From assembly GCA_030613045.1 (NCBI GenBank), contig JAUWMS010000032.1, positions 1-10,932 of the forward strand: a stretch of DNA of 10,932 nt. The letters run 5' to 3'. Below the pieces are notes generated by a model that saw only the letters and a program-made list of their open reading frames with translations, ran no database searches and was not told the DNA's origin. The position numbers and the translations under genes were made by a program. Positions 1 to 9,030 of the stretch are shown here, in pieces. Numbering within the stretch: the stretch's first letter is position 1; the number at the start of each line of letters is the position of its first letter. The DNA is from Candidatus Latescibacterota bacterium (GTDB lineage Bacteria > Latescibacterota > 4484-107).

Positions 1-2558
1 GCTTTGAGGCCCTTTTCCCGAATCAAATCGTCCGTAACCACCGCGATCAGCGAGACCTTGTCCTTCAGGATCGCGCCGATCACGCCCACGCCGCTTTTAA
101 GCGCGGTTCTCAGGGAATCGGCCATGTCCCGGAACGCCTTCATATCGCCGACTTCTACCTTCGACGCGACCACTTTGAAGCCCGCGACCGTGGAGGCGGT
201 TTTGATCAGATCTTGCATCTCCGACCCGGCCGCCGTGCGTCTCATGCGCTCTAATTCTTTCTCCAACGCTTTGTTCCCGGAAAGAAGCTTTTCCACGCGA
301 TCCCCGAGTTCGGACGGGCCTGCCGTCAGGATTCGCTCCAAGTCGGAAAGCAAATCCCGCTCGGTACGGATCGCCTCCTCCGCGCCTTCTCCGGTCAGCG
401 CTTCGATGCGGCGCACTCCGGAGGCAATGCTGCCCTCGGAGGTGATCCGGAAGAATCCGATCTCCCCGGTGGCCCCCACGTGGGTGCCGCCGCACAGTTC
501 CATCGTGTAGTCGCCCATTTGCACCACGCGCACGATCTCGCCGTATTTTTCCCCGAAGATAGCCGTGGCGCCCATCCGACGGGCCTCATCGAGCGGCTTT
601 TCGAAACAATCCACCCGGATATTCTCCCGAATTTTTTCATTGACCAACCGTTCCACGGCCATTAGATCCCGGTCAGAGATGGCCGAAAAATGAGAGAAGT
701 CGAAGCGCAGCCGGTCCGGCGTCACCAGCGATCCGGCCTGGTGCACGTGCTCCCCGAGCGTCTGTCTGAGCGCACGATGCAAAAGGTGCGTGGCCGTATG
801 ATTCCGGGCCGTGGAAGCGCGCCGCCGGGTGTCCACCATGGCGCGTAAAACCGTTTTACCGCCGAGACCGCTGAGATCGCTGAGAACTGCGGAAATATTA
901 TTTATGGTGTTCTCTGCGTCCTCTGCGTGCTCTGCGGTGAGGCTTTCAGTCGTATCTCCTTTGACGAGACGCGCACGATGCACGGTCCCTGCTTCGGACG
1001 AAATCGTATCGAAGACCTCCAATTCCACATCGTCCCCAATGAGCGTTCCCCGATCGCCGACCTGTCCGCCCGATTCCGCGTAGAAAGGCGTCGCGTCCAA
1101 ATTCAAATCCACGTCGTCGTCCCGCATCCGCAACTTCCGAATCTGAACGGAGGACTCCAGCGTATCATACCCGATGAACTTAGAATGCTCACCCTCCGAT
1201 ACAATCCGCCACTCGGCCTCCTTCGCCTTCGTCCCGGCAAACGTGGAAGCCGCCCGCGCCCGCTGCCGCTGCGCCTCCATCGCCTTCTTGAAGCCCGCCG
1301 TTTGCACCGACAGCCCCTTCTCTTGGGCCATCAACTGCGTCAAATCCAGCGGAAAGCCATACGTATCGTAAAGCTTGAACGCGTCGCTCCCGGGGATCAC
1401 ACGTGCGCCTTTGCCCTGCACGCTCCGGGCGATGTCCTCGAAAATCTCGATCCCCCGATCCAGCGTCTTCCCAAAACCCTCTTCCTCACCCTTGGTCACC
1501 ATCGAAATCGTCTGCGCCTTCTCGATCAATTCGGGATACGCCGCTCCCATAGCGTCCGCCAACACCGGAGCCAACCGATAGATGAACGGCTCGTGCATTC
1601 CCAGATTTCTCCCGAACCGGGCCGCGCGCCTCAGAATCCGGCGAAGAACGTATCCCCGTCCCTCGTTGGAGGGCATCGCTCCGTCCGCAATGGCGAAGGA
1701 GAGTCCACGAATATGATCGGCGATTACACGAAACGCGGTCGGATCCTCCTCAAAATCATGTCCCGTAATCTCCGCAATCCCGGCGAGAATAGGCTGGAAA
1801 AGATCGGTCCCATAATTGTCCGCATTACCGTTCTGGAGAAACGCGGTGATCCGCTCGAGTCCCAGGCCGGTATCCACGTGTTTTTCGGGAAGCTCCGTCA
1901 AATGCCCTGTTTCGTCTCTATTGAACTGGATAAATACCAGATTCCAGAGTTCCACGTATCGGATTTGGCGGATCGCTTCGCAATGGGGACAATTCGGCCC
2001 GCAATCGGGGCGTCCGCACCCGCCGCTTCCGAGATCCAGATGAATTTCGGAGCAGGGGCCGCAGGGACCGACTTCGCCCATCTCCCAGAAATTGTCCTTT
2101 TTTCCGCAACGCATGATCCGATCCGACGGGAGAATTCGCTTCCAGAGTTTCTCGGCCTCGTCGTCGTCCTCATACACCGAGGCCCAGAGCCGATCCTTCG
2201 GAAGTCCCAGTTCCCGGGTGAGAAATTCCCACGCAAACTCGATGGCCTCCTTTTTATAATAATCCCCGAACGACCAATTGCCCAACATTTCAAAGAAAGT
2301 GTGATGGGTCGTGTCCCTTCCGACCTCGTCCAGATCGTTGTGCTTGCCCGACACGCGGATGCACTTCTGGGAAGAAACGGCCCGGACATAGTCCCTTTTT
2401 TCCCGTCCCAAGAAGATATTCTTGAACTGATTCATCCCCGCATTGGTGAACAACAAGGTGGGATCGTCGTACGGAACAACGGGCCAGCTTCGCACAATCG
2501 TGTGATCGCGCTGTTCAAAATACCTGAGAAAGGCGCTTCTGATTTCGTTTGATTTCAT
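1..2558 (-). CDS. alaS: Alanine--tRNA ligase, 3' end beyond window
   Basis: Cytosolic class II aminoacyl-tRNA synthetase that charges tRNA-Ala with alanine and hydrolyses Ser/Gly-tRNA-Ala. My translation is open for 852 codons with no internal stop and runs off the window edge; E. coli AlaS is 876 residues, so only the C-terminal end is missing. Visible signatures are GMNQFKNIFLG near the N-terminus, GRDTTHHTFFEMLGNWSFGD, ELWNLVFIQF, class II motif 3 DTGLGLERI, AESGGQVGDRG, and the zinc ligands HTATH (587-591) and CGGTH (689-693). The start ATG at 2558 has GAGGA five bases upstream. The frame is also open upstream of this ATG, back to the end of the orphan antitoxin. Residues 541-567 (T-A-E through L-G-G) are encoded by a short-unit palindrome and have no counterpart in E. 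coli AlaS as I remember it. Without them the spacing from GQVGD to HTATH differs from E. coli by about one residue. Identification is very secure. Confidence 0.98.
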   Translation of the reverse strand, partial: MKSNEIRSAFLRYFEQRDHTIVRSWPVVPYDDPTLLFTNAGMNQFKNIFLGREKRDYVRAVSSQKCIRVSGKHNDLDEVGRDTTHHTFFEMLGNWSFGDYYKKEAIEFAWEFLTRELGLPKDRLWASVYEDDDEAEKLWKRILPSDRIMRCGKKDNFWEMGEVGPCGPCSEIHLDLGSGGCGRPDCGPNCPHCEAIRQIRYVELWNLVFIQFNRDETGHLTELPEKHVDTGLGLERITAFLQNGNADNYGTDLFQPILAGIAEITGHDFEEDPTAFRVIADHIRGLSFAIADGAMPSNEGRGYVLRRILRRAARFGRNLGMHEPFIYRLAPVLADAMGAAYPELIEKAQTISMVTKGEEEGFGKTLDRGIEIFEDIARSVQGKGARVIPGSDAFKLYDTYGFPLDLTQLMAQEKGLSVQTAGFKKAMEAQRQRARAASTFAGTKAKEAEWRIVSEGEHSKFIGYDTLESSVQIRKLRMRDDDVDLNLDATPFYAESGGQVGDRGTLIGDDVELEVFDTISSEAGTVHRARLVKGDTTESLTAEHAEDAENTINNISAVLSDLSGLGGKTVLRAMVDTRRRASTARNHTATHLLHRALRQTLGEHVHQAGSLVTPDRLRFDFSHFSAISDRDLMAVERLVNEKIRENIRVDCFEKPLDEARRMGATAIFGEKYGEIVRVVQMGDYTMELCGGTHVGATGEIGFFRITSEGSIASGVRRIEALTGEGAEEAIRTERDLLSDLERILTAGPSELGDRVEKLLSGNKALEKELERMRRTAAGSEMQDLIKTASTVAGFKVVASKVEVGDMKAFRDMADSLRTALKSGVGVIGAILKDKVSLIAVVTDDLIREKGLK
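858..938. repeat. 81-base short-unit palindrome inside alaS
   Basis: The left arm at 858-884 is three 9-base units and the right arm at 912-938 is three units in inverted orientation. All six units fit NNCGCNGAG when read outward-in. The inner bases AAC (885-887) and GTT (909-911) extend the pairing. The spacer at 885-911 is 27 bases and AT-rich. The total of 81 bases equals 27 codons, and the element edges fall exactly on codon boundaries of alaS (residues 541-567). The alaS-sense arms translate as TAE-HAE-DAE and LSD-LSG-LGG. The composition and periodicity resemble the other repeats in this window, all of which are intergenic. Confidence 0.85.
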
Positions 2559-3434: not shown

Positions 3435-3779
3435 TCACAGGCAAAACCGTCCATTCTCATAGACCACTCTGCCTTTCTGTTTTATCTGTCCTAAAAAATC
3501 GAGCGGGGTGGCTTCCTCGTACTCATGAGGGGTATAGGCCAGCGCTTCAATCTCTATCTCAAAATGGCGCGGGATGGAATGGCAGAGCTGTTGTAAATCA
3601 GCCAATCGATCCGCTCCAAAATCGGGAGAGATCACGGCCAAATCCAAGTCACTTTCAGGATGTGGATGGCCTTCCGCGTAGGAGCCGTAAAGGATGACCT
3701 TCTCTAAGTGGATGGCCTTCTGCAAGCTTTCTATATAAATCGAAAGCAGATTCTTTAATTGATCCGCTGTCTTAACCAT
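3435..3779 (-). CDS. MNT-type nucleotidyltransferase antitoxin (114 aa)
   Basis: A minimal nucleotidyltransferase with LYGSYAEGHPHPESDLDLAV: the GS-x10-DxD signature of the pol-beta-like fold, where the aspartates bind metal. In characterised HEPN/MNT modules the MNT partner neutralises the HEPN RNase, in MntA by AMPylating it. This gene follows a HEPN gene and overlaps its end by 25 bases (3755-3779), so the two are translationally linked. ATG 3779 is preceded by AAGGAG with eight bases of spacing; a longer frame to 3881 lies within the HEPN gene and is less likely. The C-terminal half (HFEIEIEALAYTPHEYEEA) fits short MNT proteins. Confidence 0.88.
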   Translation of the reverse strand: MVKTADQLKNLLSIYIESLQKAIHLEKVILYGSYAEGHPHPESDLDLAVISPDFGADRLADLQQLCHSIPRHFEIEIEALAYTPHEYEEATPLDFLGQIKQKGRVVYENGRFCL

Positions 3780-4144
3780 CGGAACATCTCCTTCGTCCTT
3801 GACAGGTATTCCTTTGAACGGTCGAGCGTGGCTATTGCCGCCATTTTTTTCTTGTATGCCGGATAGCGGGCCATCACGCAAAAAGGAGTTAGATCATCCA
3901 GAAATTTGAGTTGTTCGTCCGACATCTCTGCATCAATGCCGCTTATTTCCGCAAGTCTTCTGAGGTTGTGGCTGTAAGGTGGATATACGTCTTTCCATTC
4001 CACGATAATTCCCTTCAGAATCTTCTCTATCGTTTGTTGACCCATGAAGGAAACGTATAGGTACCGTCCGGTTCGGAACATCGCCTCGGCCGTATTGAGG
4101 TCATATTCTGCGTGGCTGATCCAATGACTTGTTTGCTCTTTCAT
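3755..4144 (-). CDS. HEPN domain protein, partner of the downstream MNT
   Basis: A 129-residue HEPN protein that is helical throughout. It has HWISHAEYDLNTAEAMFRTGRYLYVSFMGQQ(T) at the N-terminus, typical of the PF05168 type, then SHNLRRLAEISG and ARYPAYKK in the C-terminal half. In this subgroup I do not see the RX4-6H ribonuclease motif of HepT, so toxicity is uncertain; the conserved ARYP is the most notable basic patch. The gene overlaps the MNT start by 25 bases, with HEPN first and MNT second. It starts 50 bases after the other HEPN gene. ATG 4144 has only a weak GAG upstream, so translation may depend on read-through from the preceding gene. Confidence 0.85.
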   Translation of the reverse strand: MKEQTSHWISHAEYDLNTAEAMFRTGRYLYVSFMGQQTIEKILKGIIVEWKDVYPPYSHNLRRLAEISGIDAEMSDEQLKFLDDLTPFCVMARYPAYKKKMAAIATLDRSKEYLSRTKEMFRWLRQRIN

Positions 4145-4194
4145 GCAATTCTCAATTTACGTATAGCTGTTTCCATCTCATCATCCCAGCAAGA

Positions 4195-4722
4195 TCATTT
4201 TCCCAAGTTTCGTTCCCGCAAATCACCTTGAACGCTTCGTTCCAAAAAATCCGCAAAGGCACCCAATTCCTTTTGCACTTGCTCCCACACCGACGGAAGG
4301 TTGTGCACCAATCCTGCCATACGTTCCGGAACCAAATACATCGCATAAATATGCCGCACCCGATGGCGAAATTTACGATACTCGTCCAGAATCTCACAGA
4401 CTTCCCGGCTTAATACCGGAGGACGAATGTCAGGCAGGTCCATTTCCGCCTGCCTCAGAAGCTCCCTGTGCCAGGCTTCTCCTCCCAATGCTCCGCCATC
4501 CACCTCCTGTACGATCAGTTCAAGAATCCGCTCCAGCCCGGTATAAAAGCTATGAAGGTTCAACGCCACTGAGTTCAGATAAGCTTCTCGTTCCTCCGGA
4601 ACCGTCTCAGAACGATGCCAATCCCGCTTCACAGCCGCTACCGTGCGATCCAACTCCCTAAGTTCCATCCGAATGCGTTGGGTCAGAACATGGGTTCTGG
4701 CACCTACAGGGAAATCCCCCAT
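4195..4722 (-). CDS. HepT-like HEPN ribonuclease toxin (175 aa)
   Basis: A helical protein with LHSFYTGLERILELIVQEVDGG and, at the C-terminus, YRKFRHRVRHIYAMYL. The run RHRVRHIY fits the RX4HXY motif of HepT toxins, where R and H act in RNA cleavage and Y is the site modified by MntA. I therefore read it as the toxin of the MNT gene just upstream, with which it overlaps by 19 bases. The start ATG at 4722 has AAGGAG eight bases before it. The GTG at 4740 would bury that site inside the gene and is rejected. It is longer than classical HepT (about 130-140 residues) because of the extended N-terminal helices. Confidence 0.82.
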   Translation of the reverse strand: MGDFPVGARTHVLTQRIRMELRELDRTVAAVKRDWHRSETVPEEREAYLNSVALNLHSFYTGLERILELIVQEVDGGALGGEAWHRELLRQAEMDLPDIRPPVLSREVCEILDEYRKFRHRVRHIYAMYLVPERMAGLVHNLPSVWEQVQKELGAFADFLERSVQGDLRERNLGK

Positions 4723-5087
4723 TTTTCGATCTCCTTCCACAGGGATTCAGGAGTGGTCTCTACTTCAATCAAGTCTATCTCGAACTCCGACAACGCGCGC
4801 TCTACCTTGCTCCAGGCCTTCCAGATTACCCCTGGGGGCAACCCTTCCACAGCCAAGTCAATATCAGACCTGGACGTGAACCAAGCTTCGTGCGCCAGTG
4901 ACCCGAAGGCAATAATCCGCCTGGCTCCGAACTCCTCCCTGAGCATCCGGGCGGCGCTCCGGGCTACCTCCCAAGCGCGCTCCCGTCTTTTGCCCAATGT
5001 CATCCGCTCCCGCTCCCAACGCGCGTGGGCGGTACGCCGATAGGCCGCCATTTCTTCAAAGCACACAGATTGAGCTGTCTTGGCCAT
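4704..5087 (-). CDS. MntA-like nucleotidyltransferase antitoxin (127 aa)
   Basis: A minimal nucleotidyltransferase with FGSLAHEAWFTSRSDIDLAV. The GS and DxD elements are intact, with eleven residues between them, one more than the usual ten. A basic N-terminal helix (ARWERERMTLGKRRERA) precedes the catalytic core. It is the presumed antitoxin of the downstream HepT-like RNase and should modify the tyrosine of its RX4HXY motif, as shown for MntA/HepT (type VII systems). ATG 5087 is preceded by GAGGAG with six bases of spacing. The gene begins 19 bases after the recX stop, so it is probably expressed on the recA-recX transcript. That would tie it to recA-linked expression, although no separate promoter can be seen. 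Confidence 0.88.
   Translation of the reverse strand: MAKTAQSVCFEEMAAYRRTAHARWERERMTLGKRRERAWEVARSAARMLREEFGARRIIAFGSLAHEAWFTSRSDIDLAVEGLPPGVIWKAWSKVERALSEFEIDLIEVETTPESLWKEIEKWGISL
4731..4736 (-). promoter_or_regulatory. Ribosome binding site deciding the HepT-like start
   Basis: AAGGAG on the minus strand, eight bases before ATG 4722, lies inside the coding region of the preceding MNT gene. It decides for ATG 4722 over the in-frame GTG at 4740 and shows that the overlapped toxin has its own initiation site. Confidence 0.75.
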
Positions 5088-6892: not shown

Positions 6893-6920
6893 TCGGATCG
6901 CTCCTTTCGTATTCGTGGGG

Positions 6921-6983
6921 CAGGGATCGGGGATCGGGGGCCAGGGACCAGCCCTTCCCCTGACCCCTGACCCCTAACCCCTG
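6921..6983. repeat. G-rich imperfect palindrome in the recA leader
   Basis: The left arm at 6921-6949 and the right arm at 6955-6983 are each 29 bases and align end to end as inverted copies, 20 of 29 identical by my count. Most mismatches are G/A transitions, which G-U pairing would tolerate in RNA. Each arm consists of about four 7-base units near TCAGGGG. The spacer is five bases. The element occupies most of the 100 bases between the TPR gene and recA and ends about 28 bases before the recA start. The RNA form could fold into a long hairpin just ahead of the recA ribosome binding site. Confidence 0.8.
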
Positions 6984-6992
6984 CTTTTCCGG

Positions 6993-8786: not shown

Positions 8787-8889
8787 AATGTCAACTGTCA
8801 AAATCCGAATGCCATAAGCAGCTCAAAGACCAAAGGGCAAAGTCCGGATGGTGCGCTATTTGGCTTTTGAGCTCTGAAATTTGACATTT
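8787..8889. repeat. Degenerate inverted repeat with AATGTCAA ends
   Basis: The left arm begins AATGTCAA at 8787 and contains AGCTCAAAGACCAAAG; the right arm, read inverted from 8889, begins AAATGTCAA and contains AGCTCAAAAGCCAAA. The match is patchy. Part of the right arm (8866-8889) recurs at 9031-9054 in direct orientation, 20 of 24 bases identical. Confidence 0.55.
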
Positions 8890-8919
8890 AAGTAGGTGGA
8901 CAGAATAAAACTACAATTT

Positions 8920-8991
8920 CACCACGGATGCACGGAGAACCCCTGGGCAAGAGGGTGAAGAGCTTTGGTTTCTTTCGTGTCTTTCGTGGTG
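8920..8991. repeat. CACGAAAGA-unit palindrome
   Basis: The left arm at 8920-8941 reads CACCACGGATGCACGGAG and continues AACC. The right arm at 8967-8991, read on the minus strand, starts CACCACGAAAGACACGAAAG and also ends AACC. Each arm has two units of 8-9 bases after a shared CAC, and a spacer of about 25 bases separates them. The design matches the elements in alaS and before recA, but the unit sequence is different. Confidence 0.75.
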
Positions 8992-9030
8992 GGCATAAGA
9001 AAATAATTTTGTCCAAGAACTTATTTGTCA

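Follow-up and report, generated by a model that had tools for sequence, protein, structure and literature searches.

Palindromic repeats that lie in frame within protein-coding genes are best documented, in the accessible parts of the literature, for Rickettsia and for a handful of further genomes. The Rickettsia palindromic elements (RPEs) are given in the available text of these sources as 105–146 bp (PMC2229807) or about 150 bp (PMC10969869) long and as interspersed palindromes, some outside genes and others within unrelated conserved genes, where they keep the reading frame (PMC2229807, PMC10969869, PMC3733652, PMC6649704). Their repeat identity is said to fade over time, and translation was shown for the gmk gene (PMC2229807). 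The GTAG/CGTC REPs are short palindromes in many copies, marked at one end by the tag GTAG or CGTC, with stems of 5–13 or 8–9 bp; according to the accessible sections, more than half of their intragenic units are dimers or groups encoding 20–30 residues, and tRNA synthetase genes are among the hosts (PMC3733652). ERIC, Correia/NEMIS and other small MITEs are described as small non-autonomous elements with open frames, some of them fused to genes in frame, and several are listed with TA termini (PMC2229807); the Wolbachia WPE, named in PMC3733652, is grouped with them here. Inverted repeats within protein-coding sequence are also described from Nematomorpha mitochondria, where the palindromes, with arms of up to 142 bp, are reported to be perfect and to be maintained (PMC6649704).

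The repeat described here comes from an environmental lineage and is a different-looking family; sequence and topic searches of the open literature, as far as its text was accessible, found no publication on it. It resembles the RPEs, as these are described in the cited parts, in having both non-genic copies and in-frame copies in unrelated conserved genes, and in the fading identity of an alaS pair. The comparison with RPEs drawn in an earlier note on this DNA is apt, and the element appears to work like them, the likeness drawn here being one of behaviour and description. It differs from them in its core of about 80 bp, its arms of iterated 8/9-base units and its host, a member of the Latescibacterota; translation, shown for the RPE in gmk, is presumed here. 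With the GTAG/CGTC REPs it shares short palindromes, many copies, intragenic units and a tRNA synthetase host, but its arms are of iterated units and it bears no consistent tag: within 10 bases outside and 3 bases inside either end, GTAG was found in 5/75 and CGTC in 0/75, and four arbitrary tetramers in 3–29/75. On its tag, the repeat falls outside that family. ERIC, Correia/NEMIS, MITEs and WPE have other hosts and sizes, and the flanks of the present copies showed no TA termini. Unlike the Nematomorpha palindromes, the alaS element is imperfect, and it is weaker in a congener. It is probably a protein-coding palindromic repeat, as its family is dispersed with inverted-repeat structure and lies in frame in unrelated genes, being absent from orthologues (AlaS, HypF of genome G000 and MurD of genome G004).

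The window, the whole stretch of 10,932 nucleotides that was analysed, belongs to genome G000 (3.14 Mb, 78% complete); the congener, G001, is 60% complete. The coordinates of the features are shown in Table 1.

Table 1. Coordinates in the window of alaS and of the palindromic element that it carries.
Feature	Position	Strand	Basis
alaS (alanine--tRNA ligase), 3' end past the window edge	3..2558	-	TIGR00344, PF01411, PF07973
81-bp palindromic element, alaS codons 541-567	858..938	.	Repeat search, fold, covariance model
Element arm 1, three 9-base units ACCGCCGAG ACCGCTGAG ATCGCTGAG	858..884	.	
Element spacer, 27 bases	885..911	.	
Element arm 2, three 9-base units CTCTGCGTC CTCTGCGTG CTCTGCGGT	912..938	.	
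Covariance-model R1 match including outer TTTT and GAGG	854..942	.	89.7 bits (alaS copy itself among the rows used to build R1)

The identity of the gene as AlaS is certain (TIGR00344, E 8e-270; Pfam PF01411 and PF07973 concur in profile searches). Since alaS lies on the minus strand with its start at 2558, the element, read from 938 to 858, corresponds to the codons given in Table 1; its edges lie on codon boundaries, the alaS frame is open throughout, and the encoded peptide is TAEHAEDAENTINNISAVLSDLSGLGG. The arms, spacer and codon-boundary edges had been placed in the earlier note with exact coordinates. Its description of two inverted arms also stood, although it was silent on their imperfection, only 20/27 arm positions being complementary. 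The repeat search returned inverted arms at 858-897/899-938 (73%), plus three direct copies with 9-base spacing. The coding strand of the element with about 10 flanking bases per side folded at -36.0 kcal/mol, against -21.9 kcal/mol (sd 3.25) in 200 dinucleotide shuffles (z -4.33; 0/200 as good). A search of Rfam with positions 700-1100 of the window gave no match.

The alaS copy is a member of a dispersed family. The possibility, raised in the earlier note, that the element occurs nowhere else in the genome does not hold, as a blastn search found the alaS copy at 47 places in G000, its own included, which leaves 46 further ones. A two-unit pattern, GCNGAGNNCGCNGAG, had 269 matches in the same genome versus 5 for the pattern read backwards. 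A covariance model, R1, was built from 17 rows representing 16 distinct copies, and gave 149 strand-matches in G000 and 124 in G001 (150 candidates scored per genome); in the class relatives G002, G003 and G004, at E up to 1 and with 150 candidates scored each, 0, 0 and 1 (weak) matches were obtained. At E up to 1e-4, matches were present in 14/64 genomes of the phylum, G000 and G001 included, and in 12/26 named-record genomes (of 80), with at most 10 strand-matches each. No match was found to phage and plasmid collections. An arm on each side was present at 8 of 14 loci from the phylum (L332-L345), and 0/8 were in a frame open for more than 40 codons both ways. The copies examined below are a best-scoring sample of 81, 59 from G000 and 22 from G001.

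To place the insert among other AlaS proteins, an alignment of 150 sequences was used, comprising the window, 29 loci from phylum genomes (L062-L090, drawn from AlaS matches in 58/60 genomes), 40 of 120 listed relatives and 80 named-genome loci; the set may hold double entries of the same gene and has a few fragments. The spacing from GGQVGD to HTATH was 90 residues in the window AlaS, 87 in that of the congener and 87-101 in P0001-P0006, part of the excess in P0002 (101) lying outside the insert. It was 59-68 in 141 other AlaS and 74 in the distant L168, which has an unrelated insert; 142/150 sequences are thus at 59-74. The 8 carriers (8/150) are the window AlaS and its seven nearest relatives, and they formed one clade with support 1.0 in a tree of 149 tips from which the insert columns had been removed. 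One of them, P0006, is 82% identical to the window AlaS and bears the source label Candidatus Latescibacterota. The alignment of relatives that the earlier note had proposed therefore places AlaS outside one clade without the insert, only the seven nearest of 149 carrying it, and its alternative of an ancestral loop did not survive: the insert is found in only 7/149 other AlaS, in two of them with partly different sequence. By this sequence comparison, the alaS insert is confirmed as a derived insertion, and a single event in the clade ancestor would account for the AlaS data.

The two partly different sequences, P0004 and P0005, have an insert of equal length with a different left half (KKQVKVKVEK..), which resembles part of an insert in RimO (L259, L303), and they are not sisters in the AlaS tree; this pattern could stem from recombination between variants of the element or from chimeric contigs. 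Same-length inserts of partly different sequence, like the unrelated insert of L168, would be expected if an ordinary loop specific to this lineage had come to look like the repeat fortuitously, or had been seeded by gene conversion and not by insertion of the element. The 46 further blastn places and the score of 89.7 bits against the family model, among whose rows the alaS copy stands, argue against such an origin, which is very improbable.

In the AlphaFold model of AlaS (mean pLDDT 86.6, pTM 0.56), residues 535-552 had pLDDT below 50 and the block means in 551-570 were 55 and 58, the low-confidence segment lying between the strands 524-534 and 570-575. The editing region aligned with AlaX-M (9iuw) over 207 of its 212 residues at 2.1 Å. 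Because of this position between strands and the alignment with AlaX-M, the insert is predicted to be an extra loop on an otherwise intact editing-domain barrel. The surface loop near the editing half that the earlier note had supposed is thus retained as a loop between barrel strands, its exposure to solvent being probable.

Copies inside genes were recognized by one frame open through the element together with coding scores on both sides, a test that 12 copies passed. One of these, G000:C306, was dropped (190-aa frame, no profile run), and G000:C190, whose closeness to a contig end put it beyond the reach of the test, was taken in because a GT9 profile matches across its insert, so that the in-gene set comprises 12/81 sampled copies (11 that passed plus C190). 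All lie in frame, in part by construction, since they were picked partly for an open frame. The hosts in G000 are AlaS, GH57, a GltB-like protein, a radical SAM fusion, MurD, RimO, a subtilase/FG-GAP protein, a GT9 enzyme and a putative OstA-like ORF read without profile; those in G001 are a 1638-aa ORF, HypF and a radical SAM/SPASM protein. Profile matches flank the insert on both sides in 9/12 hosts, the left match being weak in the GltB-like one; the GH57 host has a profile on one side and the 1638-aa ORF has no profile match. The profiles of MurD (39-529) and RimO (42-520) each run in one continuous stretch across the insert. The MurD insert is absent from the orthologue in the class relative G004, and the RimO and GH57 inserts are common to G000 and G001. 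Orthologues of MurD and GltB1 were not found in G001 (60% complete), where the MurD query gave weak Mur-ligase matches only. A TAE-frame query added hosts or orthologues outside this count, namely a GltB1-like ORF and an amylase in G000 and the alaS and GH57 orthologues in G001; two further matches were set aside, C238 with a non-coding left flank and C254 without a Pfam match. The claim that a repeat of a mostly non-genic family has entered an essential gene in frame is borne out.

No broken gene was found in 72 copies by the codon-score test (0/72), 9/81 copies being too near a contig end. Three same-strand copies with differing flanking frames (G000:C552, G001:C74, G001:C165) were considered as frameshift or bypass cases and read as lying between separate genes; G000:C267, with flanks in the same frame and a stop inside the element, reads as intergenic. 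The gene readings at these four copies were made by eye and are not profile results, and the C165 frame is without a Pfam match. Bypass by the ribosome or excision from the RNA is reported, in the accessible part of the source, for palindromic elements in Magnusiomyces mitochondria (PMC6649704), and a strong hairpin within coding sequence would suit an element that is transcribed and not translated. Any length would then be tolerated, yet 9/12 in-gene spans share one class modulo 3 (weaker in the strict set); moreover, the 12 in-gene copies, chosen partly for that, keep one open frame through the element, and the three frame-differing cases read as between separate genes. Bypass or excision is accordingly given hardly any weight.

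Judged by reading the peptides, the inner units encode Ala-Glu (or Ala-Lys) in 9/12 in-gene copies, the other two frames being used by 2 and 1 (binomial p 0.004 at one third; 9/13 with C306 included). The element span fell in one class modulo 3 in 9/12 in-gene versus 21/69 other copies (Fisher p 0.007), and the effect is suggestive, not strong, because p shifts to 0.013 when C306 is added and to 0.048 in the strict test-passing set (8/12 versus 22/69). The mean number of open frames per element was 3.30 of 6, versus 1.79 in shuffles. The earlier note had taken the 9-base unit as the reason why this family, and not 7-base ones, is tolerated in a gene; this was not supported, in view of an 8-base unit at the outer end of 5/12 in-gene copies (G000 C177, C190 and C388; G001 C158 and C12) and of repeats of 7/8-base units (GGATTTC../..GCAATCC) that flank the element in frame in the HypF, GltB-like and GT9 genes. 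Tolerance in genes appears to be set by total length modulo 3, and the 9-base unit allows later change of size in frame, as in the alaS of the congener.

A filled/empty pair between congeners was found in HypF, where the G001 protein is longer by a net insert of 57 residues, absent from G000; a half-element further on is common to both. The core of this insert is nearly identical to copy C6 at an unrelated G000 locus; the whole local alignment has 137 identities, 6 mismatches and 15 gap positions, none of the gaps falling in the core. In the alaS of G001, one arm is shorter by exactly one 9-bp unit, and the hairpin is the weaker one (-20.6 kcal/mol, 81 nt, versus -33.8 kcal/mol, 90 nt, in G000). 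Between the two species, AlaS differs at 6/27 residues of the insert and at 41/540 and 22/282 residues of the flanks; dN/dS is about 0.51 in the insert (0.144/0.284, 30 codons, few changes) and 0.10 and 0.15 in the flanks. Insert conservation was below that of both flanks in 7/7 AlaS relatives. Decay was seen for alaS only, because the in-gene copies as a set fold like the others: selection for the hairpin in genes was not detected (-47.1 in-gene versus -49.6 kcal/mol per 100 nt elsewhere, p 0.26).

These data also bear on whether the insert serves AlaS, as an adaptive or domesticated peptide or as a selected mRNA hairpin. Its presence in all 8 AlaS of the clade and a dN/dS below 1 (from the same 30 codons with few changes) are what such a role would give. 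It is nevertheless improbable: all seven relatives show the insert less conserved than both flanks, the congener has a weaker hairpin, the same peptide type occurs in unrelated proteins, P0004 and P0005 have a different left half, and in-gene copies fold no better than others.

The alaS copy is very probably a non-autonomous palindromic repeat that was inserted once in frame, is translated and is passively tolerated. A non-autonomous interspersed palindromic repeat (MITE/REP-like) would have spread through the genomes of the genus. One copy would have entered alaS in frame, by a single event in the common ancestor of the eight carriers. We infer that this copy is translated as 27 residues that lengthen a loop joining two beta strands in the AlaX-like barrel of the editing domain, with little harm. 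Insertions breaking frame or fold would be purged, and this proposed purging would explain why surviving intragenic copies are in frame. After insertion the copy would drift, its pairing decaying and its residues changing faster than those elsewhere in AlaS, and loss of complete 9-base units would leave the frame intact. The family has AlaS and MurD among its hosts, offers a congeneric filled/empty pair and includes a copy that lacks one repeat unit in frame. The system allows a direct test of the way in which essential enzymes gain residues from selfish DNA, and it carries the warning that such inserts, and spurious ORFs from them, are present in predicted proteins. A wider view, which we put forward only tentatively and consider rather doubtful, is that iterated-unit palindromes are widespread mobile DNA pre-adapted to coding (stop-poor in most frames, changing length by whole codons, and modular, with exchangeable cores between common outer inverted repeats) and hence a steady source of loops in essential proteins of some uncultured phyla, with many genes of one genus affected.

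Regarding mobility, a clean target-site duplication was not obtained. Two-base identity outside the TTTC/GAAA extension was present in 23/73 copies versus 11.2 in shuffles, an excess confounded by copies nested in larger repeats; the commonest identical flank pairs were TT/TT (12) and AA/AA (7), several copies being nested in this way. Y1_Tnp (PF01797) had 5 matches in G000 and 1 in G001. None of these six Y1-transposase loci had the arm pair, a single arm being found at the edge of one, and none of the PF01797 genes was shown to be flanked by the element.

When outer arms were classified in the 81 copies by the author's score threshold, 17 were of the GGATTTC/GCAATCC type and 9 had the inverted repeat GGACAGAATT../..AATTTTGTCC; of the remaining copies, 7 lie inside a larger repeat and 48 matched no outer class. 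The alaS copy is without such outer arms. A composite, intergenic palindrome at about 8889-9022 of the window has the outer arms GGACAGAAT../..AATTTTGTCC, common to several 9-base-unit copies, and a different core with CACGGA/TTTCGTG units; because of these shared arms around another core, the short-unit cores look interchangeable.

Other observations were made on related repeats and on the window. Two separate in-frame repeat inserts each are present in L229:1707-5015 (GltB-like) and L275:1122-3728 (HypF), adjoining peptides of the NPKSEIRNPKS/SDFGL type from a second repeat family. Positions 3435-5087 of the window hold two nucleotidyltransferase-like ORFs, whose MntA antitoxin matches are weak and do not reach the cut-off; close to each lies an ORF that no NCBIfam profile matched. 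They are possibly two MNT/HEPN pairs, HEPN being a guess. A strong hairpin of 7-base-like units (GGGATCG../..CCCCTGA) lies between recA and a TPR gene at 6916-6985, and the stretch 6893-6992 folds at -48.2 kcal/mol.
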